From Filomicrobium insigne (GTDB lineage: Bacteria; Pseudomonadota; Alphaproteobacteria; Rhizobiales; Hyphomicrobiaceae), in the NCBI RefSeq assembly GCF_900104305.1, contig NZ_FNJC01000002.1, positions 620,001 to 684,000 of the forward strand: a stretch of DNA of 64,000 nucleotides, read 5' to 3'. The position numbers and the translations under genes are program-made. Below, piece after piece: positions 47,801-64,000 of this stretch. Numbering within the stretch: the first letter of the stretch is position 1; each line of letters begins with the position of its first letter. The notes beneath the pieces were generated by a model that made no database searches, was not told where the DNA came from, and saw nothing but the letters and a program-made list of their open reading frames with translations.

Positions 47801-49177
47801 GAGGATCCGACAGGCGTATCTGGCGTGGCGCTCCGACGCCATCGCGCTGAGGGACTGGTTGGCCATTTCGATGACGCTGAGCGTGGACTAGCGCGCGCCC
47901 TGGTGCGGGTGCTAGCGCGCGAGGAGATCAGCGCGGTCGCGGCTACGCTATCCATCGAAGATCGCGCAAGGCTCGCGACTATTTTGCCGGCCGTCCCGGC
48001 CGATCCCGCAGGCCCTCTTACGTGTTTGGCGGCGGCCGCTGGTCTGGATGTCGACGCGACCGTGCAGCGGTTGTTGTCGATGGACGATGAGGGCGACGGC
48101 AGTGCTGCAGTGCAGGCAATGCTGATTGCGAGCGGTCCTGGGTTGCGGGACGAGTTGATGAAAGCGCTCAAGCACAAGCGCTACAAAGTGCGGCGGAAGG
48201 CGCTTCTCCGGCTTATTCCAATTGCGACCGCGGAGGACCGGGCGGTACTTGTCGGTACTTCACGCGACCACAGTGCCGACATGCGGCTTGCGTTTGCGAA
48301 CCTCATGGAAGAACACCAGTGGCCGGAAGCGATCGATGCCTTAATCGGTTTGCTGAGCGACATGAGAAACTTCGCAAGTCAGCTCGCTCCCGCACCCTCG
48401 TGGTCGCGATATGGGGTGGCTCGCGCCGCAGCCCGAGCATTGGGCGCTTATGAAAGGCTGCCCGATCAAGCGATCGACGCTCTGCTCGAGACGGCGTCTA
48501 AGGAATCAGCCGATCCGTTTGTGGCCGGTGCGGCGCTGAGGGCGCTCGCACGACAGGACGACGATCGAATCGGGCCAACCCTCCTAGCGGCCCTTGAGAG
48601 CCGTGGATTGAATGACGCGCCCTCCTATCGTCCGAAGGCGCAGGCCGCGGCGTGGGCGCTCTTTGATCGAGTGACGGACGAGAGGCTTAGCACCCTCGGC
48701 ACTACCGCCTTGCGTATCGCGGAGCAGGATGATCCTGCAGTGGCCGGTCCGCTCCTCATCGCGTTCGGCGTCTTGGAAGGCGTTGAACGGGACGCTCTGC
48801 TTGAGCGGCTGCGGGACATGGATAACGAGCATAGGCACGCCCTCGTTCGCACTTCGGCTATAGCCGTGGACAGGGCGGATGGCCTCTCGTTGGACGAACG
48901 GGAGCGCAACCTGCAGAGATTGGCGCGCGGAGAAGCCCTGGACGGGCTGAATGCAGACGGGCGCGCAACTCTTGAGGCGTGGAGCCTTGGCCTGAATGTG
49001 GAGAATGGGTTCGAGCACTATAGCGCATGGATTGCCGATGCCGTGTTCAAGTTGCCTCTGTCGGGTGAACTGGGGCAGATTAGGGCATACAATCTTCCCG
49101 CCCGCATCGGCCTCATGACGATGCGTTCAATGTCTCCCTATGGGGAAGAAAACCGTGGGGAGGACGACGGCACGTGA
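44888..49177 (+). CDS. Endonuclease-like / STAND NTPase with HEAT-like repeats (Avs-like)
   Basis: A 1429-residue protein. After a basic tail, an N-terminal PD-(D/E)xK-like region (about 38-225) begins GYAGYEYQIEVTIW and has the D98-x3-Q-x-K104 core in LDLVVQAKT. A STAND-type NTPase follows (about 275-560) with Walker A GPSGTGKT (299-306) and a DPWGGNRI/FLITSRS region. The C-terminal half (about 700-1370) is helical and repeat-like, with HEAT-type units such as KHKRYKVRRKALLRL. This is the plan of antiviral STAND proteins: nuclease, switch, sensor. Three successive GTG codons at 44888-44896 are possible starts; GAAGGGA upstream best fits the second or third. The 218 bases before it hold no gene that I can support. 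Confidence 0.78.
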   Translation: MVVNKKPKPTGAQQRKNRRTAASGGAPARSRRSSGNPGYAGYEYQIEVTIWVALDLMLVKNATAEVEIEPKSDEDLQAAITDPASGSLGLSAAGERLDLVVQAKTRSGSPWTTAAIADVLLGKDAADDDARRRRSRPLAMLQEDLERRYIFITNESSAESLRPHEGSHLFDFPEVEELPPHARDDYDAEAQASLAPRIVLLTGITREVLAGRIGGLLSLHGHVPSSKHEACIADLRDAVRKRIAGAKGGRWTRSDLLVVLVRHGGSVAPTRDMDHYVRPRSFETIKERLYTSNAVVITGPSGTGKTLTADILELELRRGSPPFDVIGEEHGPGFVRQHLTRSDPILFHLRDPWGGNRITPSADRWSSELPKLLDNAGPGRKFLITSRSDVMQSAGHELLKGLKSYTVSIEVEDYGSGKLAEIYDAIAGDLRGHARALAVAYRTRALEALSRPYEVKRFLVALSRENSDQPRKVDDVIADSQIEAISSVIASQIASFDLDGVESAAIIWAMLSARGAVARDVFAKLTRRMRMADSTMHPNVEGLIDFLVAGQNLRQDGAALAFYHPRVEDGLRMTFLRRRPAAEHTLAAVVNALVAWDAEGADWGTETGLGVLRAASRVEGLELAISDNTQRRLNSYLEAVALSADRGSDFEAALRDLARFASPDHAPSRLAKILVEGGPETEKTIFQDRWSAPRLDDEESEVLRRDERTKGLIERFIREVLPFSHREYHSEVVPLLHGLAEGLQEAFWDALDVVAGPGGPNENIDAIVQGALLSPAPDFDRAIARFAKSNADADAWLENYRNEAYEAEEHAVDADAADHILEEPGEQYFNARQGMKVVVRLRQRRNGVDWIAGNPHRNLLIYALAELVAESPRKPTLAELRFLLANAEGWTRGQAWRAAQRHWHADLSDLLRAELVRDDMQEASFRQLLIEIAATGSARHDPLPALIAVLSDTTIQRRIELLYDIMAARLDEDPTGVSGVALRRHRAEGLVGHFDDAERGLARALVRVLAREEISAVAATLSIEDRARLATILPAVPADPAGPLTCLAAAAGLDVDATVQRLLSMDDEGDGSAAVQAMLIASGPGLRDELMKALKHKRYKVRRKALLRLIPIATAEDRAVLVGTSRDHSADMRLAFANLMEEHQWPEAIDALIGLLSDMRNFASQLAPAPSWSRYGVARAAARALGAYERLPDQAIDALLETASKESADPFVAGAALRALARQDDDRIGPTLLAALESRGLNDAPSYRPKAQAAAWALFDRVTDERLSTLGTTALRIAEQDDPAVAGPLLIAFGVLEGVERDALLERLRDMDNEHRHALVRTSAIAVDRADGLSLDERERNLQRLARGEALDGLNADGRATLEAWSLGLNVENGFEHYSAWIADAVFKLPLSGELGQIRAYNLPARIGLMTMRSMSPYGEENRGEDDGT

Positions 49178-49433: not shown

Positions 49434-49725
49434 TTGGGGGTTCGCGGCCACGAGCGGCTACCCCGTAAGTGGCGAGTCAGCGGCCTTTGCCGCCGATTTC
49501 TAGCGAGCAGAGGTCCGCAATTGAATATCCCGTGGATGTATTAAGTCGACGCAAGGCCGAGTTCCAAAACATCAATCGGGCTGGCCGGGGAGTTGGGTGG
49601 ACCATCGTCCGCTTTCCGTTTGCAAGCAGAGGTGCCGCTGGCCTATGGCCGTAAAGGCTGGCGTCGAAGGCACCTCAACTGAGCTGTGGACGATAGATCG
49701 CACCATGTTGCGTCCGGTCCAGCGT

Positions 49726-49740
49726 TGGCCAAAATGGCCA
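49726..49740. promoter_or_regulatory. Candidate operator TGGCCA-AAA-TGGCCA
   Basis: Two self-complementary TGGCCA hexamers spaced by AAA form an inverted repeat 27 bases before the Phd/YefM start. This position is typical of autoregulation by such antitoxins; binding is not shown. Confidence 0.45.
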
Positions 49741-49767
49741 CTTTGCAGATGTTCGGGATGGTGCTCG

Positions 49768-49968
49768 ATGAAGTCTCTATCCGCAAAAGAGGCCAAATAC
49801 GGGTTCGGACGGCTCATCGATCTGGCGCGCGCGGCGCCGGTCGCTATCCTGAAGCACGGTCGGCCCGTCGTCGTCGTCATGGCCATAGAGGAGTTCGAAC
49901 GCCTGAAGGCCGCTAACTGCCCAACAGATCAACAGGAGGTTCCCACACAATCGATCGAGAAGACGTAG
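49768..49968 (+). CDS. Phd/YefM family antitoxin, no toxin partner seen
   Basis: A 66-residue protein. Residues 1-48 match the Phd/YefM fold: SLSAKEAKYGFGRLIDLA (DNA-binding and dimer region), then PVAILKHGRPVVVVMAIEEFERL. A short acidic/polar tail follows. A type II toxin normally starts right after; here brxE begins 45 bases later, so the toxin is absent. The longer reading from 49597 is rejected because its extra part is not antitoxin-like. It may be a decayed module or an independent regulator of the BREX operon downstream. Confidence 0.8.
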   Translation: MKSLSAKEAKYGFGRLIDLARAAPVAILKHGRPVVVVMAIEEFERLKAANCPTDQQEVPTQSIEKT

Positions 49969-50013: not shown

Positions 50014-50595
50014 ATGACTGTTCCCGATCAAGAGACCGAGCTGGACTACGATTGGCTGCTCAAGCTCCGCGTGGCCGTGGCCCGGTGCGGCGAGATGGAC
50101 CTCGCTGGGTGGTGGAACACCAGCAAGCAACTGGGACCGTCGGGTAGCTCCGTCCTCAAACGGGGTTTCCCTCGGACGCATCATTTTGCACAGGCGCGCA
50201 GCGTGATGGCTGTCGCCTCTCACCGCTGCGAGCAGCTCCTCTCGCATAACGACGCCGTTACCCTCTGGCGGCTCCCCGAGGCCCTGGAGGATCACTTCGA
50301 GTCCCTCTGGGAAACCTGGCTGGAACGCCACGCCATTTGGGGTTCGTACTTCGAGGCCATCGCCGCGATCCGCACCGGCGACGTCATAGCCGCCGCAACC
50401 GACCTCGGGCTCGTCACGAGCGACGATATCAATGCGCTCCGGGCGCTCAAGGCAGCGCCCAACGGCCGTGGACTGAACGTCGGCGACTCCTTCACGGGGC
50501 AGCGCCGACAAATCGCTCTTCTCGCTTTGGGATTCTCAGTCGGTCGCGCCAACGACCCGGTCGTCCCCTTTGTGCAAGCGAGCGCCGCCGCATGA
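50014..50595 (+). CDS. brxE: BrxE family BREX protein
   Basis: A 193-residue helical protein whose LDYDWLLKLRVAVARCGEMD start and RGFPRTHHFAQARSVMAVASHRC segment match BrxE, the marker of type 6 BREX. Its biochemical role is unknown. First gene of the BREX operon; the next gene's ATG overlaps its stop. No strong ribosome-binding site is visible ahead of the ATG, which may matter for its expression level. Confidence 0.75.
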   Translation: MTVPDQETELDYDWLLKLRVAVARCGEMDLAGWWNTSKQLGPSGSSVLKRGFPRTHHFAQARSVMAVASHRCEQLLSHNDAVTLWRLPEALEDHFESLWETWLERHAIWGSYFEAIAAIRTGDVIAAATDLGLVTSDDINALRALKAAPNGRGLNVGDSFTGQRRQIALLALGFSVGRANDPVVPFVQASAAA

Positions 50596-51377
50596 AAAAA
50601 GCGTCCAGATCCCGCGTCGTCTCTTCTTTCACCATAGTCAAAGGCGCGATGATCGCGGAGACGTATGCGGTGTTCCGCGAGTGGGACCTGCGTCGCTCAA
50701 AGCGGGAGAACCTCGATCACCTCCGCGACACCAATTTCATCGGGGCGCGCAGCGCGACCTGGCTCCGCGACGTCATCAAAGTCCTGAACCGGCGGTTCGA
50801 ACCTGGCGGCCGCGACAAGTCCCTCATGCTCCTGGCGAAGCAGGAGTGCTCCATGGAGGAGTGGAAACCCCTTCTCCTCTGGCACATGACGCGCGACGAG
50901 TTTCTGCTCCACGACTTCATCCAGCACTGGCTCTTTAAGGCCTACGCGAGAGGGCAGTTTCGCGTGCGCCCCGACGAGCTTCATCCCTACCTCAAGACGA
51001 TCAAGCGCCGAGGCGGCAAGATCGAGCATGAGTGGACAGAGGCAACCCTTCACCGAGTGGCGGCCGGGCTGCTGAAGATCGCCGCCGACTTCGATCTCCT
51101 CAAAGGCTCGGCCATTAAGGAGTTCACGGCCCACCATCTCCCGGAGCGCAGCTTCATGTATCTGCTCCACGCCATTCGCGAGCGGGAACCCAGCCCGGGA
51201 CGCCTTATCACCGCACCCGATTGGCGTCTGTTCCTGATGAGCCCAGAAGATGTGGAGCGCGAACTCTTGCGCCTCCACCAGTACCGCAAGCTTCACTACG
51301 AGGTGGCCGGTAGCCTGATGCAGCTGTCCCTGCCCTGCAAGTCCGCCCAGGGATACGCGGAGAGGATGGCAGCATGA
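50592..51377 (+). CDS. brxA: BrxA family BREX protein (DUF1819)
   Basis: A 261-residue DUF1819 protein, a small helical DNA-binding BREX component. The start MKKASRSRVVSSFTIVKGAMIAETY and the MTRDEFLLHDFIQHWLF segment are as expected for BrxA. ATG at 50592 overlaps the brxE stop; a longer frame from 50337 is only a shadow of brxE. Its stop overlaps brxB. Confidence 0.88.
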   Translation: MKKASRSRVVSSFTIVKGAMIAETYAVFREWDLRRSKRENLDHLRDTNFIGARSATWLRDVIKVLNRRFEPGGRDKSLMLLAKQECSMEEWKPLLLWHMTRDEFLLHDFIQHWLFKAYARGQFRVRPDELHPYLKTIKRRGGKIEHEWTEATLHRVAAGLLKIAADFDLLKGSAIKEFTAHHLPERSFMYLLHAIREREPSPGRLITAPDWRLFLMSPEDVERELLRLHQYRKLHYEVAGSLMQLSLPCKSAQGYAERMAA

Positions 51378-51949
51378 GTGAGTTGCAGTACCGTATCACC
51401 CGGCACCTGGAGCCGGCCCTCAGCCTCGCCGATCCGCGGCCGCGGCTCAGCGCCTATCACGACATGCCCTACGCCATCTTCCGTTACGGTGCCGAGGACG
51501 AGTTCGAACTGCGATCGGCGGTCCGTCGATTGAAGACGCGATTGGAGAACACGGGGAAACGCGTCACCGAAATCTCTCTCGCGGAATGTTTGCAGACAGC
51601 TATCGAGTCCGAGCGGCCGCTCGAGTCCTGGTATGGGGCCGAACGCGAAACTGAGCCCGAGACGATTGCTCAGACCCTGTCCAATCTCTTCGACGACCGT
51701 CAGCCGTTGGTGGACATGGTCGGCGCGCGCATGCCTGCCGAGGCCGATCCCCTGCAGGACATCGTCTTCATCGTCAGAACCGGCGCGCTCTTTCCGGTCT
51801 ATCGAACCTTCTCGCTCTTGGAACAGCTGAAGGGACGGGTCGTCGCGCCGACCATCCTCTTTTACCCTGGCGATCTCGACGGAGCCGCCGGGCTCCGCTT
51901 CATGGGCGTCTTCGACGCCGAGCACAATTATCGTCCCAAGATCTTTTGA
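51374..51949 (+). CDS. brxB: BrxB family BREX protein (DUF1788)
   Basis: A 191-residue DUF1788 protein. The PLQDIVFIVRTGALFPVYRT and APTILFYPGDLDGAAGLRFM segments and the terminal NYRPKIF are typical of BrxB, which is needed for BREX modification and defence in characterised systems. The ATG overlaps the brxA stop (ATGA). Confidence 0.9.
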   Translation: MSELQYRITRHLEPALSLADPRPRLSAYHDMPYAIFRYGAEDEFELRSAVRRLKTRLENTGKRVTEISLAECLQTAIESERPLESWYGAERETEPETIAQTLSNLFDDRQPLVDMVGARMPAEADPLQDIVFIVRTGALFPVYRTFSLLEQLKGRVVAPTILFYPGDLDGAAGLRFMGVFDAEHNYRPKIF

Positions 51950-51960
51950 GGGGCATGGCT

Positions 51961-54900
51961 ATGTCGACGATCGCGACCCTCTTCTCCGGGGATGTTTCGA
52001 GGCGGATCGAGGAGGTCATCAAGGTCGACCAAACCTCGGCCGAGGTCATTGCGTCCGAGTTGGACGAGTACGTGGCGACGGACTCGATCCGGCGGCATTT
52101 CGTGGACGTGCTCGAGCTCTATCTCGAAACTCCGCGCAAGCCTCACGAAGGCATCGCCGTCTGGGTCTCGGGCTTTTTCGGCTCCGGCAAGTCCAGCTAT
52201 GCGAAGATTCTGGGGCTCGCGATCGAGAATCGCGACGTCCTGGGTATAGGCGCAGCCAAGCGCTTCGCAAGCCGCACCGGCGACGCCAAGCTGACGGTTC
52301 TTCTCGACGGCATAAACCAGAACATCCCGACCCATACCGTCATCTTTGACGTGTCGACGGATCGTGGCATCCGGTCCGGCAACCAAATGCTTACCGAGAT
52401 CATGTACCGCCTCTTCCTCGAAAGCCTTGGTTACGCCAAGGACATCGAATTGGCGGAGCTGGAGATCGACCTCGAGACGAGGGGGCAGCTGTCGGAGTTC
52501 GAGACAGCTTTCAAAACGCTTCACGGCAAGGACTGGAATACCGAGAAGGGAATGCTCTCGTTCGCCATCGGCGAGGCAAGCGCGACCATGAGCGTCCTCC
52601 ATCCGAAGGTCTATCCCCAACCCGATTCCTGGGCCAAAGGTCGCGCCAAGGTCGACGTGTCTCCCGGCAAACTCGCCGATCGAGCCACAGAGCTCATGGA
52701 GCGCAGGCGTCCTGGTCACGCGCTCATGTTCGTCGTCGACGAGGTCGGCCAATTCGTCGCGCGTGATGTGCAGAAGATGCTCGATCTGCAAGCCATCGTG
52801 CAACAGCTCGGAGTCAGAGGGCGCGGCAAGCACTGGATAGTGGTCACCTCGCAAGAAAAACTAAGCGAGATTGTCAGTGGGCTTGACGACAAGAAGATCG
52901 AGCTGGCGCGTTTGATGGATCGCTTTCCCACGCAGGTCCATCTCGAACCCTCAGATATTTCGGAAGTGACCAGTCGGCGCGTTCTAAAGAAGAACGGCGC
53001 GGCCGAGAAGGCTCTGGGGCAGCTCTTCGATCAACACCGCGCTCGACTGGAAGCCTCGACCAAACTCACGGCGGATATCTCGTTCCCACCACTCTCGCGA
53101 CAGACGTTCATCGACCTCTATCCGCTGCTGCCCTATCAGATCGTGTTGATCATAGACATCGTCTCCGGGCTCAGGACCCAGGGCGGCGCGAGCAAGCACG
53201 TTGGCGGCGCCAACCGAACCATTATCAAACTCGCACAGCAGATTCTCATCAATCCCGCCACCAATCTCGCCGGCTCGAGCACCGGTGCCCTGGCGCGACT
53301 GGATCACGTTTACGACCTTATCGAAAGCAACATCGCCTCAACGGTCAGGGCCAAGATCGCCTCGATCCCGCAGCGTGTCTCCCACCCGCTGGCACAAGCC
53401 GTGGCAAAGGTCGTATGCCTGCTCCAGTTTGTCCCAACAGTTCACCGCACCGCGGAGAACATCGCCGGCGCACTGTTCGAAAAGGTCGATGGCGAGTCGA
53501 AGCTGCCCCCGGTCAAGGAGGCCCTATCCGAGCTGGAGAAGGCGCTGATGATCCGTCAGGGCGACGGCGGCTACCGGATTCCGACACCGGCCGAGGACGA
53601 CTGGGACCAGCTCCGCTCCAGCATCGACCCGAAGGCTGCCGATCGGAAGCGGCTTTTCACGGAAGTTTTGACGACGCTGTGGACGCCTCAGCCCAACTTC
53701 AATTTGGGCGACACCAAGCTGTTCAGGGCAGGTCTGGTCGTCAACGGCACCGAGGAGATCACCGGCGACATCTCATTCCATCTTCATCTGGCCGAGACCG
53801 CGTCCGATGCCGCGCGAGATGCGCCGACACTGCGCCGACGGAGCCAACAGGATCAGAAAAGCGTGTTCTGGCTCGTCACGCTCCACGACGAGATCCAGCG
53901 CGAGCTGCGTGAAGCATTTCGCTCCGGTCAAATGGTCGACCGAAAGGGGCGCGGTGTCACAACGCCGGATGAAGCCCGCCTCATAGCTGAGGAGAAGATC
54001 CGCCAACGTAAACACATGGACGAGCTACGCCGTCGGCTTCGGCAGGCGTGCTTATCCGGCCCGATCTACTCGAAGGGCAATGATCGCAGCCCCGACAGCT
54101 CGGCGGCCGACGTCGGCAAGACTGCATCGACAATCTTGGGGCAGGTCCTGCCCGTCGTTTACGACCGGTTCAATGAGGCCTCGGCCAAAACCGCCGACCT
54201 CAAGCGGGGTACCGACGCGCTACTCTCCGCCGATAACCTGTCTGGCCTTCCCCCAGTGTTTAGCCAGTTGAACCTGCTTCGCGACGAGCGCGGCAAAACC
54301 GTGTTCCGGACAGACGGCGCCCCCCTCTCGGAAGTGCTCACATTGATCGAAGCGAAAGCCAATTATGGCGATCAGGCAACCGGCCGGTACCTCGAAGACG
54401 AGTTCTCCAAAGCCCCATTTGGATGGGACTTCGAGGCGGTTCGCCTATTCGCATTGTGCCTGCTGCGTGCGGGGCTCATTGATGCCGTCAGCAAAGGCCA
54501 TACGATCGAAACCGCCACGAGCATTCAGGCGCGGGACTGCTTCTCCAGCAATAACATCTTCCGGGCGACGAGCTTCCGCCCCAAGAAAGGAATCGACTTC
54601 GCGGTCATTGCCGAGGCAGCCCAACAGTTTAAGGATACGTTCGGACATGACATCCGCGAGCTATCCGCAACGCCCCTCGTTGCGCAGTTGCGCAAGGAGC
54701 TCGATAAGCAGGAAGAGAACTTCGATAGCGTCTTGGGAATTCTTCGCTCCGCGCGCCTGCCGGGCATCGAGCAGATCGACAATGCCGCGCAGCAGATGCG
54801 CTCGATTCAACGCGGAAGCGAAGAGAATGCCATCACGACCTTCACCGCCACTCACAAGCTTCTAAAGGATGCAATCCAGCGCGTCGCGGAGCTCTCGCGC

Positions 54901-55491
54901 TGCCTGACCGAGCCGGCGCTTCGCAACATAGAGCGCGCGCGGGCCGCCCTCTCGCGACTGCCGGTTCTCATCGCCGAGCCCGACTTCGACCCTGACCTCG
55001 CAGAGCGTGGTCGTGGCCTAGCCGACATCCTCTCCAAGGAAACGTTCTTCCGCGAGCTGTCAACCATCGACCAGACCGCAAAGGCCATCGAGGACGACTT
55101 CGATCGCCGACTGAAGGCCGCCGTCGCCGAACGTGTCACCGCCTATCTTGATGCGCATGATGCTCTCGTCGCGACCCCGGGCTGGGAGAAGCTCACGGAA
55201 GAACAGCAGAGCGAGATCGCGCATCCGATCCGCCAGGGCACGAGCCAAGGCGTCGAAGGCGTTTCGTTGCAGCAGGTGCGATCCGAAACGGAGCTGTGCC
55301 ACTCCCGGCTCGCCGCAGCTGTTCAGCGCGTCTATGAGCTGCTTGAAGGCGCCCGGCTGGCGACGGTGTCGCTCGGCCAGTATTTTGCGGGCGGCATCGA
55401 GACCGAGGAGCAGCTTGAGCAGGCCTTAACGGGGCTTCGCGAGGAGTTCTCCCGCCTCATCGGCGAAGGCAAGAAGGTCATCGTACGGTGA
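51961..55491 (+). CDS. brxC: BrxC BREX P-loop ATPase
   Basis: A 1176-residue cytoplasmic AAA+-like ATPase. Start at the ATG 51961, which has GAGGGG seven bases upstream; the in-frame TTG (51946) and ATG (51955) are poorly spaced. Walker A is GFFGSGKSS (residues 71-79), the extended Walker region includes LMFVVDEVGQFVARD, and a long helical C-terminal half follows, with coiled-coil-like stretches after about residue 960. Length and order match BrxC of type 1 BREX. It is required for BREX modification and phage exclusion in known systems. Confidence 0.93.
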   Translation: MSTIATLFSGDVSRRIEEVIKVDQTSAEVIASELDEYVATDSIRRHFVDVLELYLETPRKPHEGIAVWVSGFFGSGKSSYAKILGLAIENRDVLGIGAAKRFASRTGDAKLTVLLDGINQNIPTHTVIFDVSTDRGIRSGNQMLTEIMYRLFLESLGYAKDIELAELEIDLETRGQLSEFETAFKTLHGKDWNTEKGMLSFAIGEASATMSVLHPKVYPQPDSWAKGRAKVDVSPGKLADRATELMERRRPGHALMFVVDEVGQFVARDVQKMLDLQAIVQQLGVRGRGKHWIVVTSQEKLSEIVSGLDDKKIELARLMDRFPTQVHLEPSDISEVTSRRVLKKNGAAEKALGQLFDQHRARLEASTKLTADISFPPLSRQTFIDLYPLLPYQIVLIIDIVSGLRTQGGASKHVGGANRTIIKLAQQILINPATNLAGSSTGALARLDHVYDLIESNIASTVRAKIASIPQRVSHPLAQAVAKVVCLLQFVPTVHRTAENIAGALFEKVDGESKLPPVKEALSELEKALMIRQGDGGYRIPTPAEDDWDQLRSSIDPKAADRKRLFTEVLTTLWTPQPNFNLGDTKLFRAGLVVNGTEEITGDISFHLHLAETASDAARDAPTLRRRSQQDQKSVFWLVTLHDEIQRELREAFRSGQMVDRKGRGVTTPDEARLIAEEKIRQRKHMDELRRRLRQACLSGPIYSKGNDRSPDSSAADVGKTASTILGQVLPVVYDRFNEASAKTADLKRGTDALLSADNLSGLPPVFSQLNLLRDERGKTVFRTDGAPLSEVLTLIEAKANYGDQATGRYLEDEFSKAPFGWDFEAVRLFALCLLRAGLIDAVSKGHTIETATSIQARDCFSSNNIFRATSFRPKKGIDFAVIAEAAQQFKDTFGHDIRELSATPLVAQLRKELDKQEENFDSVLGILRSARLPGIEQIDNAAQQMRSIQRGSEENAITTFTATHKLLKDAIQRVAELSRCLTEPALRNIERARAALSRLPVLIAEPDFDPDLAERGRGLADILSKETFFRELSTIDQTAKAIEDDFDRRLKAAVAERVTAYLDAHDALVATPGWEKLTEEQQSEIAHPIRQGTSQGVEGVSLQQVRSETELCHSRLAAAVQRVYELLEGARLATVSLGQYFAGGIETEEQLEQALTGLREEFSRLIGEGKKVIVR

Positions 55492-55501
55492 GAAAGTCCT
55501 G

Positions 55502-58500
55502 ATGGAGAAGGAAACGCGCAACGCGATCCAGTCGGCGACGCAAAAGGCCCGCCGCGTGCTCGAGGATGATTTCCGGGAGCAGCTCGAGGGCGTCTACGAC
55601 ATCCACGTCGACGGATCGATCGCACCCCAGGCCGGCCCGCACCTGTCAGCCAAGGAGCAACGGCTACGCGACCGCATTGTCGCGGCCATCGAACACAAGC
55701 GCGCCGGTGGCATGAAGGCCGACCAAGCCATGCTCGACTATCTGCGCGATGCCGCCTTCACGACGCTGAACCGCATCGTCGCGCTGAAGATGCTCGAGGC
55801 CCGCGAGATCGTGCAGGAGTGCATCTCGCGCGGAGACGCATCTTCGGGCTTCAACGAGTTCAGCGGCCTCGCGCCGGGCATCAGATTTCCGGACGGCAGC
55901 GGTTATCGGCTCTATCTCGAATGCATCTTCGACGAGCTGTCGACCGAGGTGAAGGTTCTCTTCGACCGGCGTGATCCCTCCGCCGTGCTCTGGCCGAAGC
56001 GGGGCACATTCGAGCAGATATTGGAGATCCTCAACGCGCCGGAGCTTGCCGGCGTGTGGGGCGAGGATGAGACCATTGGCTGGGTCTACCAGTTCTTCAA
56101 CGGGCATGACGAGCGCCGCAAGATGCGCGAGGAGAGCCAGGCGCCGCGCAATAGCCGGGAGCTCGCCGTCCGCAACCAGTTCTTCACTCCGCGCTATGTC
56201 GTGCAATTTCTCTCCGACAACACGCTCGGGCGCATTTGGTACGAGATGCGTGGCGGCGATACCCGCCTCAAAGACGTATGCGACTACATGATGCGTCGGC
56301 CGGAGGAGACCTGGGAGGCGCGCGCCAAGAAAGACCCGCGTGACATGCGCGTGCTCGACCCGGCCTGCGGCTCCGGTCACTTCCTGCTCTACTGCTTCGA
56401 TCTGCTGCTCGTCATGTACGAGGAGGGATGGGCGGACGAATCCTCACCGGCGAGCGAGGTGACTGGCAAGACACTTCGTGAGGACTATCCCGAGATCGCC
56501 GGGCTCAGGGCGGCCCTGCCGGGGTTGATCCTTCGCCACAATCTGCATGGCGTCGACATCGATCCGCGATGTGCTCAAATCGGTCAGCTGGCGCTGTGGA
56601 TGCGGACGCAGCGGGCGTTCAAGGAGTTCGGCATCGGCCGAGCCGAACGGCCGATCATCAAACGCGCCAACATCGTAATTGCCGAGCCGATGCCGGGCGA
56701 GAAGGATCTGCTTAAGGAGTTCCTGGCCGAGCTGAAGGAGGACAAGCTCGAAGGGCTCATCCGCCGCGTGCTTGACGTGCCGGCCGACAAGCGGGTGCGC
56801 GCGACCAAGGCGATGGCAGACAGCCTCGCCGAGCTGGTCGAGACGGTATGGGATGGCATGAAGCTCGCCGGCGATATGGGCACGCTTCTCAAGATCGAGC
56901 GCGATCTGGCTCGCGCGATCGAGAAAGGTCGCGCCGAGTGGGAGGACACGCTGCCGCTGTTCCGCGTCGCGGACTATGGCCTTGGCGGCATCACCAACGA
57001 GAAGCTCGTTCGCGTCGTGCCGGGCGAGCAGGAGGACTTCTGGACGAAGGCCGAGAAGCTCGTGTTCCAGGCTTTGGCGGACTACGCGGCTGCAGCGAGC
57101 GGCACAGGCAATGCGCGGCGGAGGCTGTTTGCAGAGGATGCTGCGCAGGGGTTTGCGCTCGCTGATCTTATGTCGCAGCGCTTCGATGTTCTCCTAATGA
57201 ACCCGCCATTTGGATTGGCGACTGATGCCGGCCAAGACTATTTATCGAAACGATATGAGGGTGCACACACCGATATCTATGCGGCCTTTTGTCGACGCGG
57301 CATTGAACTTGTTCCCACGGGCCGAATCGGTGCGATCACATCGAGGTCATTTCTGGTCAATCCTCGTCACGAAGATTTTCGGACTATTGATATTATTCCA
57401 ACGTTGGAAGTCCTGGCGGACCTTGGCCTCGGTGTGATGGATGGAGCCGCAGTTGAAGCTGCTGCTTATGTCCTGCAAACAGTGCTTCCGATACGAGATC
57501 GCTTCATTGCCTGCAGGCTAGCTCCAAGCCAGCTGGAGAATTCCGGAGCAGGCGACAAATGGACGTACGTCGACAGGGATGCGACGCGAGCATTACCTGG
57601 AGCGATGATACTTTATTCACTTCCAGCGTCTGTAAACGCCATCCTGAGAGAATGCGTGCCGCTTGAGCCATCCAAAGGAACCGCTCGCGAGGGAATGAAG
57701 TCATTCGACGATTTCCGCTTTTTGCGACTGTGGTGGGAAGTGGCTCCCAACACGATCGGTTGGGGGAAGGCATGGACACCCTACGCAAAGGGCGGTGGCT
57801 ATGGCGTTTACTATCAGCCCTCCATGCTAACAATCAACTGGAGGTCAGACGGCTCTGAACTGCGCGCGTTGAATCTCCAGATCAACGGCTCAACTGCCCA
57901 AGTGCGTCAGGCATCCACTTACTGGGGGCGTTCGGGAGCTACGTATTCTAGAAGGTCGACGGGATTTACAGCTAAGGCACTGCCTAACGGACACATTTTC
58001 GCCACTATGGGCCCCGCGGTACTCTATACGGAAGAGGCAGAGAAGCGTCACCTTTACTATCTTCTGGGGTGGCTCAATTCCAGATTTGTCCGCTTCTTGA
58101 TCGAGCTGCAAGCAAATAAGCAAAACTATTTGACAGGAATTTTGAAGCGGCTGCCATGGCGGGAGCCAGACAACGAGGTGCACCAATCTGTCCTGTCTGC
58201 AGTACGCGGGGCCTGCAATGCGCTCGAACGGCATTATAGCTACCGGGACACAGATCCGCGCTTTAGAGGGCTTCCGGCTAGTTCATCGATAAAAGAACTG
58301 CATGAAGCGTTGTGCAACATACACAAACTAGCCGTCAATAACACGTTGCGTGCTCTTGAGAAATGCGATCGCGCCATCGACTCTGTCTATGGCGTCGAGC
58401 CGAGCACAATAAAGGAGATAGTCGACAATGTTGGCGCGTCATCATTCGGAGATGTAGCGCCTCGTCTTGACGCGCCTACCGTGCACTGGACGACGATGTC

Positions 58501-59494
58501 TAGCATTTCGGTTGCACTTGGTGTGGCGTTTGGAAGGTGTCGGGAGATTCTAGAAAAATCAGGAGTAGCAGGAGAGTGCTTCGAGGCGCCCGATTTCAAA
58601 AAGTGGTCTGTGGCAGATGGCGCGCGTCCAGAACCTGACATTTTGGTCGATGACCCAGGTGGGAATGCCGATGTGGTTGAGGCAATCGAGAAAATGCTAG
58701 ACACTGCCCTGACGGGTGGCTGGAAAGCCGATGTGCTAGAGATAAGACGGGCAATTCAAGACAGTGGACCGAAGGGATTCTTCACATTCCACTGCAACGC
58801 ATACTCCGAAGGCGGGCGCAAAGCGCCAATCTATTGGCAACTCGCTACGCCTTCGGCCAGTTACTCGGTCTGGCTCTACATCCATGCGTTCACCAAGGAC
58901 ACGCTGTTCCGCGTCCAAAACGACTACGTGGCGCCCAAGCTCGCGCATGAGGAGCGCCAGCTCGAGACGCTACGCGCCGAGGCCGGGCCCGATCCCGTCA
59001 CCGCGCAGCGCAAGGCCATTGAGGCCCAGGAAGCCTTCGTGGAGGAGCTGCGGGCCTTCCTCGACGAGGTGAAGCGCGTCGCGCCGCTCTGGAATCCAAA
59101 CCTCGACGACGGCGTGATCATCAACTTCGCGCCGCTCTGGCGCCTCGTGCCGCAACACAAGCCCTGGCAGAAGGAGCTGAAATCGACGTGGGACGCACTC
59201 TGCGCCGGCAAGTACGACTGGGCGCACCTTGCCATGCTTCTCTGGCCCGAGCGCGCCGTCCCTAAGTGTGCAGAGGACCGCAGCCTCGCCATCGCCCACA
59301 ACCTCGAGGACGTGTTCTGGTATCAGGACGAGAACGCAAAGTGGAAGCCACGCGAAGAGCCGACGCGGCCGATTGATGCGCTCGTGAACGAGCGCACGTC
59401 GTCCGCTGTGAAGGCGGCACTCAAGAGCCTGATGGAGGCGCCGGAGCCGACGAGCAGCGCCCGACGCACGCGGCGGGGGAGACGACGAACATGA
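55502..59494 (+). CDS. pglX: PglX adenine-specific DNA methyltransferase
   Basis: A 1330-residue N6-adenine methyltransferase that marks host DNA at a short non-palindromic site. The SAM-binding motif is DPACGSGHF (from residue 286) and the catalytic motif is NPPF (567-570). The N-terminal helical domain and the C-terminal coiled-coil are typical of PglX. The region from about 57170 to 58880 is visibly poorer in G+C than the flanks (27 of 60 in the line at 57361 against 43 of 60 at 58981, hand counts) and includes the presumed target-recognition part, suggesting exchange. ATG has a weak GAGAAAG site; its stop overlaps pglZ. Confidence 0.94.
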   Translation: MEKETRNAIQSATQKARRVLEDDFREQLEGVYDIHVDGSIAPQAGPHLSAKEQRLRDRIVAAIEHKRAGGMKADQAMLDYLRDAAFTTLNRIVALKMLEAREIVQECISRGDASSGFNEFSGLAPGIRFPDGSGYRLYLECIFDELSTEVKVLFDRRDPSAVLWPKRGTFEQILEILNAPELAGVWGEDETIGWVYQFFNGHDERRKMREESQAPRNSRELAVRNQFFTPRYVVQFLSDNTLGRIWYEMRGGDTRLKDVCDYMMRRPEETWEARAKKDPRDMRVLDPACGSGHFLLYCFDLLLVMYEEGWADESSPASEVTGKTLREDYPEIAGLRAALPGLILRHNLHGVDIDPRCAQIGQLALWMRTQRAFKEFGIGRAERPIIKRANIVIAEPMPGEKDLLKEFLAELKEDKLEGLIRRVLDVPADKRVRATKAMADSLAELVETVWDGMKLAGDMGTLLKIERDLARAIEKGRAEWEDTLPLFRVADYGLGGITNEKLVRVVPGEQEDFWTKAEKLVFQALADYAAAASGTGNARRRLFAEDAAQGFALADLMSQRFDVLLMNPPFGLATDAGQDYLSKRYEGAHTDIYAAFCRRGIELVPTGRIGAITSRSFLVNPRHEDFRTIDIIPTLEVLADLGLGVMDGAAVEAAAYVLQTVLPIRDRFIACRLAPSQLENSGAGDKWTYVDRDATRALPGAMILYSLPASVNAILRECVPLEPSKGTAREGMKSFDDFRFLRLWWEVAPNTIGWGKAWTPYAKGGGYGVYYQPSMLTINWRSDGSELRALNLQINGSTAQVRQASTYWGRSGATYSRRSTGFTAKALPNGHIFATMGPAVLYTEEAEKRHLYYLLGWLNSRFVRFLIELQANKQNYLTGILKRLPWREPDNEVHQSVLSAVRGACNALERHYSYRDTDPRFRGLPASSSIKELHEALCNIHKLAVNNTLRALEKCDRAIDSVYGVEPSTIKEIVDNVGASSFGDVAPRLDAPTVHWTTMSSISVALGVAFGRCREILEKSGVAGECFEAPDFKKWSVADGARPEPDILVDDPGGNADVVEAIEKMLDTALTGGWKADVLEIRRAIQDSGPKGFFTFHCNAYSEGGRKAPIYWQLATPSASYSVWLYIHAFTKDTLFRVQNDYVAPKLAHEERQLETLRAEAGPDPVTAQRKAIEAQEAFVEELRAFLDEVKRVAPLWNPNLDDGVIINFAPLWRLVPQHKPWQKELKSTWDALCAGKYDWAHLAMLLWPERAVPKCAEDRSLAIAHNLEDVFWYQDENAKWKPREEPTRPIDALVNERTSSAVKAALKSLMEAPEPTSSARRTRRGRRRT

Positions 59495-62076
59495 CGACAG
59501 CCGAGACCGCCGATCCTCATCCGCTTCACGTCTATATCGCCCGCCTGATCGCCGATCGGCTGAAAGAGCGTCATGTGGTCGTCATCTACGACAAGAACGA
59601 AGAGCTGCGGCCGTTCTTCGCCGAGCTGACAACAGAGCCCGCCACGGATGCGCTCGTGGCCGTGCGCGTCGGTTATCGTACGCCGCACCTGTGCGTATAC
59701 GACGGCTCGTTCCTCAAAGTGCGCTTCCTCGTGGAGCCCGTCACTGGCGGTGAGGTGCCCGAGGACACGTTGATCTACGTTCCCGGCCGAGAGCGCGACG
59801 AGCAAGGTTCTCTGCTCATGGAACTCGAAAAAGGTGGCGACCTGTACCGGGTTCCAGCCCTGAAGCAGCTTGCCCGCAACGTCCTGCGCAAGCGATTCAC
59901 CGACGTCGCCATCGACGAGATGCTGAAGTCCGATGCCCTGCGCTACTCGGATTTCGCGCGCATGAGCCAAGACGATGGAGCTGCTGAGGGGCCGTCGCTG
60001 CTCAAGGGCATTTTCGGCGTGACCGATAGCCTGTCGATCCTGACCGAATGGCTGGCCAACAGCGTCCACGATGCCGAGATCGTCGCGAAAGGCGCCGAAG
60101 CGGAGCTGCGCGGTCTAGCGGACGCGCGTTTGGGCACGAGCCTCCCGCAGGATGCCGATATGGCACGCCTGCGAGCGAACGTCGCCCGGCATGTGTTGGC
60201 AAACGAATTCCGCTCCGACCTTTCGCCCAAAGCCAAACTGACAGCAGCGGCCCAGCAGGCCCTAAGCGGGATTGCCGCCCCGTCTATGGCAGAGCAATCC
60301 CGCTCCATCACCGAAATTTGCCGTCGGTTGCGTGAACGGTACGCTACGGCCTACGTGTCGCTCGCCGATCAGGTCGAGCAGGATCTCAACCTCAAGGCGG
60401 ATCAGGATCTCGGCAGCTTGCTCGGCTGTGTCGACACCCTCCGTTTTGAGGAACAGTCCGTCGCCTTGGCGTGCTTCAATCTAATTGCTGCAGGCAATTT
60501 TAAGGAAGCGAAGGGCCTCGTTGATGCGCGGTCCGAGAGCTTCTGGATAGATCGTGACGTGACTCGGCTGACGGTCTGGCAGGCCTGCCGCTTGATGCTG
60601 GATCTCGGCATCGCCGCCGAGCAGGCGGATGGGCGGATGAAGAAAGCCAACGGTAACGCCGCAGCATGGGTCGAGCGGTACGTAGATTCACAGGATGGTT
60701 GGCACCAACTTGATCGTGTCCAGAGGCGGCTCGAGGCGATCCTTCCCGAACTTGAGGATGAGATTCCGGAAAGGGCCATCGGCCGCGTGCGCGCGATCTA
60801 TGATGATGCTGTGCGCCGCATGTCGGAGGGGTTCCTCAGTGCGTTTGAAAAGGGCGGCTGTACCATCCCGAGCGTCTTGCATCAGACCCGCGTCTGGTCT
60901 GAGCTGGTGCAGCCACTCCCGAAACCGGTCGTACTCATGGTCGTGGACGCCTTGCGTTACGAGATGGGCGCAGAGCTTGCGGGGCGTATTGCGAATCTCG
61001 GCGAGATCCAGTTGAGACCGGCGATTGCTGCGCTCCCGTCTATCACTCCTATAGGAATGGGCGCGCTCCTGCCCGGCGCCTCGTCGGACTTCGCAATAGG
61101 GACTCAGAACGGCAGATTTGGTGCAGTTGTCGGTGGTGCGTTCTGTCCAGACCTCTCTGCACGCTTGAAGTATCTGAAGGCTCAAGTTCCGGAATTTCTT
61201 GACCTCACGCTCGACGACACGCTTTCAGGTAACACCAAGTCATTGAAGAAGCGCTTAGGCACGGCCAAGGTCATCCTGATCCGATCAACCGAGATCGATG
61301 CAGCGGGCGAGAACACGGGTACCGTCTCTGCGCGCCGCATCATGGAGCGGGTCATCGAGGACATTGCAAGATGCCTCCAGCGCATTGCCGCGGCGGGCAT
61401 CGAGAATGTCGTCATTACCGCAGATCACGGCCACCTCTTCTTCGCGTCGGATCGCGTTGCTTCCATGCGTATCGACGCGCCGGGCGGCGATACCGCTGAC
61501 CTTCACCGCCGGTGCTGGACCGGAAGAGGTGGTGCGACGCCACCTGGCAGTGTCCGTATCCCAGGCTCTAGGTTGGGTTATAATACGGACCTTGACGTGG
61601 TGCTCCCGGCAAGCATCTCAGTGTTCAAATCCGGGGGCGATCTTGCCTACCATCACGGCGGCGCTTCTCTCCAGGAGATGGTGATCCCGGTCATCAAGGC
61701 GCTCCTCAAGACCAAGCCAGAAGGCCGATCGGAGAAGAATGCAGTTACCGTCGGCCACGATTTCGACGCGGTCACTAATCGTATCTTCTCAGTAAGGATC
61801 GAGCTTGGCGGCGCCGCCAAAAACCTCTTCGAACAGCCTCGTCGCGTTCGGCCCATTGTTGTTTCAGGAGAGCGGCAGGTTGCGGCAGCTGGCGTGGCCG
61901 TGGGAGCTCCATTAGAGGATGGCTGTCTTTTACTAGAGCCTGGGGTTCCAGCGACTGCAGGGTTCATTTTGACCGACGACACCGTTGAGGCCGTTCGGAT
62001 CCAAGTGCTGGACGCCGATACCGACGCGTTACTCTTCCTTTCACCCCAGGATCTGCCAGTCCGGCTCGGAGTCTAG
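59491..62076 (+). CDS. pglZ: PglZ BREX alkaline-phosphatase-superfamily protein
   Basis: An 861-residue protein with a PglZ domain of the alkaline phosphatase superfamily. Metal-site motifs are visible in MVVDALRYEMG (about residues 481-491) and VVITADHGHLFF (about 640-651). The N-terminal 450 residues are helical. PglZ interacts with PglX in characterised systems. It overlaps pglX by 4 bases (ATGA) and is three bases from brxL. Confidence 0.93.
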   Translation: MTTAETADPHPLHVYIARLIADRLKERHVVVIYDKNEELRPFFAELTTEPATDALVAVRVGYRTPHLCVYDGSFLKVRFLVEPVTGGEVPEDTLIYVPGRERDEQGSLLMELEKGGDLYRVPALKQLARNVLRKRFTDVAIDEMLKSDALRYSDFARMSQDDGAAEGPSLLKGIFGVTDSLSILTEWLANSVHDAEIVAKGAEAELRGLADARLGTSLPQDADMARLRANVARHVLANEFRSDLSPKAKLTAAAQQALSGIAAPSMAEQSRSITEICRRLRERYATAYVSLADQVEQDLNLKADQDLGSLLGCVDTLRFEEQSVALACFNLIAAGNFKEAKGLVDARSESFWIDRDVTRLTVWQACRLMLDLGIAAEQADGRMKKANGNAAAWVERYVDSQDGWHQLDRVQRRLEAILPELEDEIPERAIGRVRAIYDDAVRRMSEGFLSAFEKGGCTIPSVLHQTRVWSELVQPLPKPVVLMVVDALRYEMGAELAGRIANLGEIQLRPAIAALPSITPIGMGALLPGASSDFAIGTQNGRFGAVVGGAFCPDLSARLKYLKAQVPEFLDLTLDDTLSGNTKSLKKRLGTAKVILIRSTEIDAAGENTGTVSARRIMERVIEDIARCLQRIAAAGIENVVITADHGHLFFASDRVASMRIDAPGGDTADLHRRCWTGRGGATPPGSVRIPGSRLGYNTDLDVVLPASISVFKSGGDLAYHHGGASLQEMVIPVIKALLKTKPEGRSEKNAVTVGHDFDAVTNRIFSVRIELGGAAKNLFEQPRRVRPIVVSGERQVAAAGVAVGAPLEDGCLLLEPGVPATAGFILTDDTVEAVRIQVLDADTDALLFLSPQDLPVRLGV

Positions 62077-62079
62077 ACG

Positions 62080-64000
62080 ATGTCGACGCCAGTACGGGAC
62101 GCCCTCGACGACAAAGTGAACCGCGTCTTCGCCGGCAAGGTGGTGCGTAAGGACCTCGTTCGACGGGTGAAGGTCGGCGCAAATGTGCCAGTGTTCGTGC
62201 TCGAATATCTGCTCGGAAAATATTGTGCCTCGTCGGATGAGATGGCCATTCAGATGGGTCTCCAGGTCGTCAACGCGACGTTGAGCGAGAATTACATCCG
62301 ACCGGATGAGTCTATGAAGGCGCAAAGCAAGGTCAAGGAAAAGGGCCGATGGACGTTCATCGACAAGGTCAAGGTCCGCCTTGTCGATTCCGACTACTGG
62401 GCCGAAGTGAACAACTTCGGCAGCCGCAACGTGCATATCCCAAACCAGTACGTCAGGGACTACGAGCGGCTCCTGACCGGCGGGATCTGGGCGCAAATCG
62501 ACATGCGCTTCGAGTACGATGAGGAAGGCAAGGGCAAGAATCCCTTCTGGATTGACAAATTGGTGCCTATCCAGGTCGCCACCTTCAATCTCGAAGAGTA
62601 TCAACGCCTTCGTGCGGAATTCACCGTCGACGAGTGGATGGATCTGATCCTCCGGAGCATGGGCTACGAGCCCTCCGAGATGTCCCGCCGTCTCAAACTG
62701 TTGTTCCTAACGCGCCTAATACCGCTGTGCGAGCGCAACTATAACCTCGTGGAGCTTGGGCCGCGAGGCACTGGTAAGAGTTATGTCGTTCAGGAGGTCT
62801 CCCCCTATGCAGCCCTCATGACGGGACCGACGACCGTCGCCAACCTATTCGGGCATATGGGAGGACGCTCCAAAGGCCTCGTGCAGATTTGGGATGTCGT
62901 CGGCTTCGACGAAGTCGCCGATCTCGAGAAGATGCCGAAAGAGGTCGTCACCACCATGAAGACCTACTGCGAGTCGGGATCCTATCAGCGTGGTCAGGAG
63001 GCAGCGTCCGGCGAAGCGAGCGTCGCCATGTTCGGCAACACGAACCAGCCGATCGACGCGATGGTTCAGTCCGGCCACCTCTTTGAGCCGATGCCTGAAG
63101 TCATTCGCGATGACATGGCCTTTATCGATCGCCTCCATTTCTATCTTCCGGGCTGGGAAATCCCGAAGATGAGAAACGAGCTTTTCACGGATCACTACGG
63201 CTTCGTCGTCGACTATCTGGCAGAAGCACTGCGCGAGCTGCGCCGGCACAATTTCACAGAGGTCCCCGACCGCTACTTTACCATGGGATCGCATCTCGTG
63301 TCCCGGGATCGAAAGGCCGTCAAGCGTACGGTCTCCGGGCTCATGAAGATCCTCTATCCCGACGGCAAAGCCACTCGCGACGAGGTAGCCGAGATCCTCG
63401 AATTTGCATTGGAAGGCCGGCGCCGAGTGAAAGAGCAGCTGAAAAAGATGGGCTCTTTCGAGTACTACCACACCTCGTTCAGCTATACGGATTCCGAGAC
63501 AGGAGAGGAGCGCTTCGTCGGCGTCCCGGAACAAGGCGGCCGCAACATGATCTCGTCCGATCCGCTGCCCCCGGGCAGCGTCTACGCGGCAAGCGTCGCG
63601 GCCGACGGTACCGTCGGGCTTTTCAGGGTCGAGGTCTCGATCAGCACAGGCGCCGCCAAGTTGAGAACGGCCGGCGGGATCAGCGGCGCCACAAAGGAAT
63701 CCATTAATCGGGCCTTCAGCTACATGCTCGCTCGCAAGGCCGAGCTTACGATCGGTCGGGAGCTCGACAGCTCCGATCTCCACGTCGAGGTGATCGACCT
63801 GCTCAACAACCGCGTCGAGGGAGAAATCGGCCTCGCGTTCTTCGTTGCCGCATTCTCCGCTCTGAAGAAAGCTGCTCCCGCCGCCGCACTGCTGATCCTC
63901 GGCGACCTCAGCGTGCAGGGCAACATCAAGGGCGTAAGGTCGTTGGTCGAACCGCTGCAAATCGCCATGGATAACGGCGCCAAGCGCGCGCTCATTCCGC
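62080..64000 (+). CDS. brxL: BrxL Lon-like AAA+ BREX protein (partial)
   Basis: The frame is open from the ATG at 62080 to the right edge (640 residues seen, C-terminus cut). An AAA+ domain has Walker A GPRGTGKS (about residues 227-234) and a Walker B-like region VVGFDEVADL (about 273-282). A Lon-protease-like C-terminal domain begins near residue 480, but the catalytic Ser loop (PSAG in Lon) reads EGEIG (about 578-582) and the expected Lys position reads in GVRSLVEP, so peptidase activity looks lost. Known BrxL is a DNA-binding AAA+ ring that blocks phage replication. It starts three bases after pglZ. Confidence 0.93.
   Translation, partial: MSTPVRDALDDKVNRVFAGKVVRKDLVRRVKVGANVPVFVLEYLLGKYCASSDEMAIQMGLQVVNATLSENYIRPDESMKAQSKVKEKGRWTFIDKVKVRLVDSDYWAEVNNFGSRNVHIPNQYVRDYERLLTGGIWAQIDMRFEYDEEGKGKNPFWIDKLVPIQVATFNLEEYQRLRAEFTVDEWMDLILRSMGYEPSEMSRRLKLLFLTRLIPLCERNYNLVELGPRGTGKSYVVQEVSPYAALMTGPTTVANLFGHMGGRSKGLVQIWDVVGFDEVADLEKMPKEVVTTMKTYCESGSYQRGQEAASGEASVAMFGNTNQPIDAMVQSGHLFEPMPEVIRDDMAFIDRLHFYLPGWEIPKMRNELFTDHYGFVVDYLAEALRELRRHNFTEVPDRYFTMGSHLVSRDRKAVKRTVSGLMKILYPDGKATRDEVAEILEFALEGRRRVKEQLKKMGSFEYYHTSFSYTDSETGEERFVGVPEQGGRNMISSDPLPPGSVYAASVAADGTVGLFRVEVSISTGAAKLRTAGGISGATKESINRAFSYMLARKAELTIGRELDSSDLHVEVIDLLNNRVEGEIGLAFFVAAFSALKKAAPAAALLILGDLSVQGNIKGVRSLVEPLQIAMDNGAKRALIP

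Follow-up and report, generated by a model that had tools for sequence, protein, structure and literature searches.

A 64,000-nucleotide stretch of the Filomicrobium insigne genome (contig NZ_FNJC01000002.1, positions 620,001 to 684,000; hereafter the window) carries at its right end a seven-gene bacteriophage exclusion (BREX) operon, brxE-brxA-brxB-brxC-pglX-pglZ-brxL. BREX types take their names from the genes that they contain. The initial annotation of this DNA had placed brxE first and brxL directly after pglZ, and both the gene order and the profile scores of all seven genes bear this out. The genes run head to tail on the plus strand from position 50014 to 64113, with all frames open and with neighbouring genes overlapping by 4 bases or separated by gaps of 3 to 10 bases; start codons were picked mechanically.

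The brxE gene (50014 to 50595) encodes 193 amino acids and scored 145 bits with the broad BrxE family model NF033447 (cut-off, 40 bits). The ATG of brxA (50592 to 51377) overlaps the brxE stop codon by 4 bases, and its product matched PF08849 (68 bits; cut-off, 23) and the PADLOC BrxA model (343 bits). The product of brxB (51374 to 51949) matched PF08747 (63 bits; cut-off, 26.8), and brxC (51946 to 55491) encodes a P-loop ATPase that scored 816 bits with NF033441 (cut-off, 400) and 1933 bits with PADLOC model PDLC02476. The adenine methyltransferase gene pglX, also called brxX (55502 to 59494), is a single gene for 1330 amino acids; its product passed the BREX-1 PglX model NF033452 (580 bits; cut-off, 500) and contains an Eco57I domain (PF07669). 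PglZ, encoded at 59491 to 62076, matched PF08665 (62 bits; cut-off, 25) and passed no type-specific PglZ cut-off. The last gene, brxL (62080 to 64113), extends 113 bases past the window end into the adjoining part of the contig, L003 (L003:81-2114), and encodes 677 amino acids with the domains BrxL_N, BrxL_ATPase and a C-terminal Lon-type domain (Lon_C). BrxL scored 420 bits with PF13337 (BrxL_ATPase; cut-off, 25) and, on the 640 residues within the window, 944 bits with TIGR02653 (cut-off, 628). Inspection of the translations by eye located GFFGSGKSS in BrxC, GPRGTGKSY in BrxL, NPPF in PglX, and VDALR and ADHGH in PglZ; we take the first two to be Walker A motifs and all of them to be motifs expected of working proteins. 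The Ser-Lys dyad appeared, also by eye, to be missing from the Lon-type tail of the window BrxL. A Lon-type BrxL tail without this dyad is described in the accessible part of gkag035 (PMC12839542).

The initial annotation had raised the question of whether brxD and brxHI, the genes that end a type 6 operon, lie to the right of position 64000. Neither was found behind brxL in the L003 stretch, where brxL ends at 64113 and the next gene, on the opposite strand, encodes a UvrD/GajB-like helicase. The best match to the BrxD model in the whole genome scored 22 bits against a cut-off of 350, and the matches in this genome to the helicase of a type 6 locus (L066) were 22 to 32% identical and were either on a different contig or at a distance of over 380 kb.

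When 84,980 species genomes were scanned with the window BrxC, 15 relatives (46 to 70% identity) were recovered, which by their record titles are eight Alphaproteobacteria, six Planctomycetota and one Bdellovibrionales. Because the scan seeks short exact peptide patterns, this number is a lower bound. All 14 relatives with DNA 5' of brxC carry brxE (L017 has no DNA there), and brxL comes next after pglZ in 9 of the 9 that reach beyond pglZ, three of which end inside brxL; L012, L019, L020, L021, L024 and L025 end before passing pglZ. Of 385 genomes sampled from the window's class, 3 (one being that of the window) had a BrxE above its cut-off, and brxL was present in all 3 loci. BrxC exceeded its cut-off in 9 of these genomes, 7 of which had DNA 5' of brxB, and brxE was present in 3 of the 7. 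Plasmid protein searches with single sequences, whose counts are lower bounds, found brxE in at least 11 records, 8 with brxL and 3 with brxD and a helicase. The eight are from Thioflavicoccus, two Hymenobacter strains and five haloarchaea; in one of them, Hymenobacter BRD67, the BREX locus is broken into many pieces. The pairing of brxE with brxL was found in three lineages, namely, that of the window, one that unites Thioflavicoccus and Hymenobacter with two further genomes of the window's class, and a haloarchaeal one. Judged from these gene contents, BrxE with BrxL is a recurring arrangement in bacteria and archaea and not a one-off hybrid.

The distribution among loci without brxE was also recorded. 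No BrxE match at an E value of 1e-4 was obtained in any of the 13 loci labelled canonical type 1 whose sequence extends 5' of the operon. Locus L055 is labelled type 1 without brxE though its contig stops within brxB, and its genome shows no BrxE match; L114 and L116 keep the same label though they end before brxL. Locus L056, whose contig stops at brxC, was first given this label in the BrxC tree and was later relabelled. Loci L065, L079 to L083, L117 and L118 lay outside the gene survey, L079 and L081 being the type 2 outgroup. In 48 genomes of another class, BrxC exceeded its cut-off in 4, and a BrxE match was absent from the three that were looked at (L114 to L116).

The window BrxE passed the family cut-off and fell short of the BREX-6 equivalog NF033448 (33 bits; cut-off, 80). 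A single BrxE model of PADLOC matched it, with 23 bits over residues 11 to 78, and Pfam gave no match to it. The type 6 BrxE proteins of Azospirillum and Aulosira passed both NCBIfam models (187 and 240 bits, respectively, with the BREX-6 model, and 125 and 156 bits with the family model). In alignment A1, all 15 BrxE sequences of the window lineage matched NF033447 and NF033448 at an E value of 0.001, with a best E value of 1.7e-43 for the former and a weaker 1.3e-13 for the latter. Across 26 BrxE sequences (15 of the window lineage, 9 of other loci with BrxE and BrxL, and 2 of type 6), G26, E27, W33 and W34, which make up a GE...WW motif, and P185 were invariant, and R19 was conserved in 24. 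Because of the family-profile scores, the BREX-6 shortfall and the motif invariance, the BrxE call of the initial annotation stands, and the window BrxE is placed by its profiles outside the type 6 subfamily.

The trees were mostly of a quick kind, without bootstrap, and several had uneven letter composition. In the BrxC tree (49 rows), the bacterial brxE loci including type 6 formed one clade with a support of 99 in the Shimodaira-Hasegawa-like approximate likelihood ratio test (SH-aLRT); this clade has 24 rows, among them L056, which lacks the 5' side. The window lineage (16 rows) and type 6 (3 rows) each had a support of 100, and the tree did not fix the order of the branches. The PglZ tree also united the bacterial brxE loci with type 6 (98) and gave the window lineage a support of 100. 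In topology tests of PglZ, neither the window lineage with the other bacterial loci bearing BrxE and BrxL (P value of the approximately unbiased test [p-AU], 0.375) nor those other loci with type 6 (P = 0.393) was rejected. The PglX tree, built on the first 720 residues, joined the window lineage and the other bacterial lineage bearing BrxE and BrxL with a support of 100, the window lineage by itself reaching only 70. Constraining the window lineage and type 6 to one PglX clade lowered the log likelihood (lnL) by 59 and was rejected (p-AU = 0.0015), and a single clade of bacterial brxE loci was not rejected (P = 0.605). The type affinities of BrxC and PglX, about which the initial annotation had asked, are, for BrxC, one clade of the window lineage, type 6 and a second lineage bearing BrxE and BrxL, in unfixed order, and, for PglX, rejection of a clade of the window lineage plus type 6. 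In the BrxL tree, the window lineage was one clade (100).

The further subtype that the initial annotation had suggested is supported by the three lineages carrying brxE with brxL and by the SH-aLRT support of 100 for the window lineage in BrxC, PglZ and BrxL, against only 70 in PglX. Its question of how often brxL accompanies brxE was answered by the 9 of 9 relatives, 3 of 3 class genomes and 8 of at least 11 plasmid records.

A 4-base overlap between the end of brxE and a start codon of brxA was seen in 19 of 26 brxE loci (including 1 of 2 type 6 and 4 of 5 archaeal loci), and a brxA start codon lies no more than 10 bases from the brxE end in 25 of 26; in L021, brxA is split in two. Among members of the window lineage, distances correlated with those of BrxC for BrxE (r = 0.84, n = 14), BrxB (r = 0.94, n = 14), PglZ (r = 0.98, n = 10), BrxL (r = 0.75, P = 0.002, n = 8) and BrxA (r = 0.77, n = 13; r = 0.90, n = 12, when the window is left out). 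Three modules were found at the 3' end of brxE loci: BrxL ending in a Lon-type domain, as in Haloarcula and in the window; BrxL ending in a phospholipase-D-type domain, as in Thioflavicoccus, Hymenobacter monticola and G039 (and also in the canonical locus L061); and BrxD with a helicase in type 6. In gkag035 (PMC12839542), tails of this phospholipase-D type, there called HKD, are counted in 1030 of 2913 BrxL-bearing type 1 taxa.

These comparisons favour the following reading. The window locus is a complete BREX operon, presumably anti-phage, that joins BrxE with BrxL; it belongs to a recurring lineage in which an old front cassette would be combined with an exchangeable last module and BrxE may act as a partner of BrxA. 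We assign this reading, taken as a whole, a probability of about 0.62.

The comparison of loci shows that the front cassette brxE-A-B-C-pglX-pglZ is mostly co-inherited and that its 3' slot is filled by BrxL-Lon (window and haloarchaea), BrxL-PLD (the phospholipase-D-type tail) or BrxD with a helicase (type 6). For type 1, the accessible text of gkag035 (PMC12839542) states that BrxX marks one strand of non-palindromic sites, that BrxA, BrxB, BrxC and PglZ are generally required, that PglZ is implicated as a metal-dependent nuclease and that the need for BrxL in phage inhibition varies, some systems requiring it and others not. Since the same parts are present, the type 1 cycle is the best guide here. 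By analogy, PglX would mark one strand of a non-palindromic host site, and unmarked phage DNA would be bound by an assembly of BrxA, BrxB and PglZ on a BrxC scaffold. PglZ would then nick the DNA and the BrxL ring motor would act on it, so that phage replication stops. BrxE may be a front-end subunit working with BrxA, a proposal particular to this study that draws on the brxE-brxA overlap seen at most loci in each lineage and on the retention of brxE with any tail.

Several observations weigh against this reading. The haloarchaeal brxE loci were not joined with the bacterial ones with support in BrxC and stood beside canonical type 1 in PglZ (support, 80), and a single clade of all brxE loci was merely not rejected by PglZ (p-AU = 0.27) and had a support of 9 in PglX. 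BrxE loci are rare: among 398 genomes sampled from the phylum, BrxE exceeded its cut-off in the window's own genome alone, and BREX-6 BrxE exceeded its cut-off in none. G064 and G473, at 20.6 and 21.5 bits, fell under the BrxE cut-off and were left out. The front cassette appears not to have been exchanged only as a block, because the window brxA has a history different from that of its neighbours. The window brxE, brxB and brxC group with those of L012 and L016, and the window BrxA (50592 to 51377) groups with that of L018, from Phycisphaerales (support, 84). Forcing the window BrxA together with L012 and L016 alone was 164 lnL units worse and was rejected (P = 6e-69), and forcing it with all seven other alphaproteobacterial rows was not rejected (P = 0.16). 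A single mid-operon gene, brxA, was probably exchanged. The tail, for its part, has by the BrxL tree been exchanged at least once, in either direction, because in the second bacterial brxE lineage BrxL clusters with that of the canonical type 1 loci L055, L061 and L074 (support, 99, with a long-branch warning). This conflict in the BrxL tree and the fitting tail domains identify the last module as the part that varies between loci sharing a front.

The proposed role of BrxE is also weakened by the structural searches. The AlphaFold model of the window BrxE has a predicted local distance difference test score (pLDDT) of 85 and a predicted template modelling score (pTM) of 0.86. No solved relative of BrxE was found, and a Foldseek search with the model, run against the PDB and against viral models, returned nothing at an E value of 0.001. 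The top structure after re-alignment was E. coli BrxX (8zek; Z, 4.0; 170 residues; root mean square deviation, 4.8), which is no convincing fold match. Profile comparison of BrxE with PglX, BrxA, BrxB, BrxC, PglZ and BrxL gave no support for relatedness, the best value, for BrxA, being P = 0.038 as one of six comparisons. Kinship of BrxE with BrxX is not claimed, because the profile comparison gave it no support. The absence of a listed family for BrxE is no evidence of a new fold.

A serious rival is that BrxE regulates the operon, in the slot occupied by a WYL protein (BrxR) in some type 1 loci. We regard this as unlikely, though it has points in its favour: brxE was the first gene in the loci examined, that slot is taken by a WYL gene in the canonical loci L061, L068 and L075, which lack brxE, and the brxE-brxA overlap is also compatible with a regulator. 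The Pfam matches of 15 BrxE members speak against it, since they include no DNA-binding family; the best (E = 0.022, in two members) was an ABC-3C system domain. A very weak match of BrxE to the ligand-binding domain of a regulator (Z, 2.6) proves nothing.

The initial annotation had also suggested that BrxL replaced BrxD and BrxHI in a type 6 operon. The window lineage, type 6 and one other lineage with BrxE and BrxL do share one clade in BrxC (99) and PglZ (98), the best type-specific profile of the window PglZ is that of BREX-6 (245 bits; cut-off, 400), and the best PglZ tree has the window lineage and type 6 on one side of a branch, with a support of only 41. At this locus, however, the replacement is unsupported and we consider it improbable: brxL is present in all nine relatives that reach that far, BrxL distances track those of BrxC, PglX rejects a clade of the window lineage and type 6, and the BREX-6 cut-offs were missed by BrxE, PglX and PglZ alike. 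Early in the bacterial brxE clade, close to its base, one tail may have replaced the other in either direction, since BrxC and PglZ leave the three branches unordered. That a canonical type 1 operon acquired brxE from elsewhere is very improbable: the six other genes are the type 1 set, PglX passes the BREX-1 cut-off (as does a type 6 PglX) and haloarchaeal brxE loci lie near canonical type 1 in PglZ, but the window BrxC, PglZ, PglX and BrxA fall outside the groups of loci without brxE (for BrxA with a support of only 82), none of the 13 such loci in which the 5' flank is covered shows a BrxE match, and the close BrxC relatives carry brxE in 14 of 14 cases.

The reading of an old front with an exchangeable tail can be widened. 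BrxE could be the hallmark of an ancient half of canonical BREX in bacteria and archaea, in which a constant front serving recognition (BrxE-A-B-C-X-Z) would be combined with an interchangeable 3' effector (BrxL-Lon, BrxL-nuclease, or BrxD with a helicase). Type 6 would then be one tail variant, and in target recognition BrxE would be the partner of BrxA generally; this wider proposal is a tentative one, which we hold as somewhat less probable than not.

Whether type 1 loci with brxE had already been described in number was a point left by the initial annotation, and the answer is divided. Entries for a BrxE family protein and for BrxL within one locus already appear in public gene tables, so that the arrangement is visible in annotation. 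In the literature searched, including the accessible parts of PMC12926258, PMC9716671 and PMC10164562, no discussion of BrxE in BrxL-bearing loci was found. The accessible text of gkag035 (PMC12839542) calls BrxE exclusive to type 6 in its single mention, which is an account of the founding study; it counts 506 type 6 taxa, among which loci with BrxE and BrxL may be included, and places types 5 and 6 within type 1 as subtypes. On the best reading of the gene contents compared here, brxE would not be a marker of type 6. If brxE is indeed common to three last modules, it is unusable as such a marker, and surveys relying on the PADLOC BrxE model that gave 23 bits here may miss such proteins. The same front with three tails would be a natural experiment on which defence step the tail performs, and on whether BrxE serves recognition and methylation rather than the effector step.

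The genes flanking the operon were also examined. Just upstream, window positions 44888 to 49177 encode a 1429-amino-acid protein with an nSTAND3 nucleoside triphosphatase domain and a weak HEAT-repeat match, which is possibly a separate defence gene. A gene for a Phd/YefM-type antitoxin (49597 to 49968) lies 45 bases upstream of brxE, and no toxin gene was seen next to it. Neither protein was accepted as part of the system: no match was found at an E value of 1e-3 on the 5' side of brxE at 18 loci, of which L017 and L011 have almost no DNA there. On the other side, the UvrD/GajB-like helicase gene (L003:2278-4863) is convergent with brxL, and a gene for a tyrosine recombinase with an Arm domain (L003:9323-10675) lies about 7 kb beyond brxL; no transfer RNA genes were found in L003. 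These genes suggest an integrated island.

The organization of pglX varied among the loci. It is a single gene in the window, L015 and L022 and is divided, with 4-base overlaps, between a methyltransferase gene and a second gene encoding the remainder in L013 (13482-17527), L014 (13552-17783), L016 (13548-18181) and L010 (7663-11462). A split pglX also occurs in L017 and L026, and in L011 with two genes between the halves. This feature of the relatives, not of the window, resembles the M and S subunits of type I restriction enzymes. At the Halobaculum plasmid locus L071 (8242-11916), pglX is present twice, one copy lying directly before brxE. The Haloarcula plasmid NZ_CP119561.1 carries two BREX loci with BrxE and BrxL (L063 and L118), which share the accessions of BrxE, BrxA, BrxB and BrxL and differ in those of BrxC, PglX and PglZ.

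Compared with known systems, the window operon has the six genes of type 1 BREX (brxA-brxB-brxC-pglX-pglZ-brxL) in identical order, and its PglX and BrxL pass the BREX-1 and TIGR02653 cut-offs, respectively; the BREX-1 PglX cut-off is also passed by a type 6 PglX (541 bits). It differs from type 1 in the extra first gene, brxE, overlapping brxA, in the placement of BrxC, PglZ, PglX and BrxA on other tree branches, and in a PglZ that misses both type 1 models (118 bits against a cut-off of 270 for model A and 88 against 400 for model B). With type 6 BREX (brxE-A-B-C-pglX-pglZ-brxD-brxHI; L066, L069 and L078), it shares the leading BrxE, the order of the front genes and a common clade in the BrxC and PglZ trees, but it has BrxL where type 6 has BrxD and a helicase, the PglX tree rejects a clade of the two, and its BrxE, PglX and PglZ miss the BREX-6 cut-offs. 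The window PglX reached 375 bits with the BREX-6 model (cut-off, 900), whereas the reference type 6 locus of Azospirillum scored 1865 and 1078 bits with the BREX-6 PglX and PglZ models. We class the operon as neither type 1 nor type 6. The plasmid loci of Thioflavicoccus, Hymenobacter monticola and five haloarchaea, annotated with a BrxE family protein and BrxL, have the gene set and order of the window, inserted genes aside. Three of them (L011, L062 and L063) differ from the window in sequence, with identities over the matched stretches of 26 to 37% for BrxC, 24 to 28% for PglZ, 25 to 45% for PglX and 43 to 44% for BrxL, and the BrxL of Thioflavicoccus and Hymenobacter has a phospholipase-D-type end, whereas that of the window has a Lon-type end.

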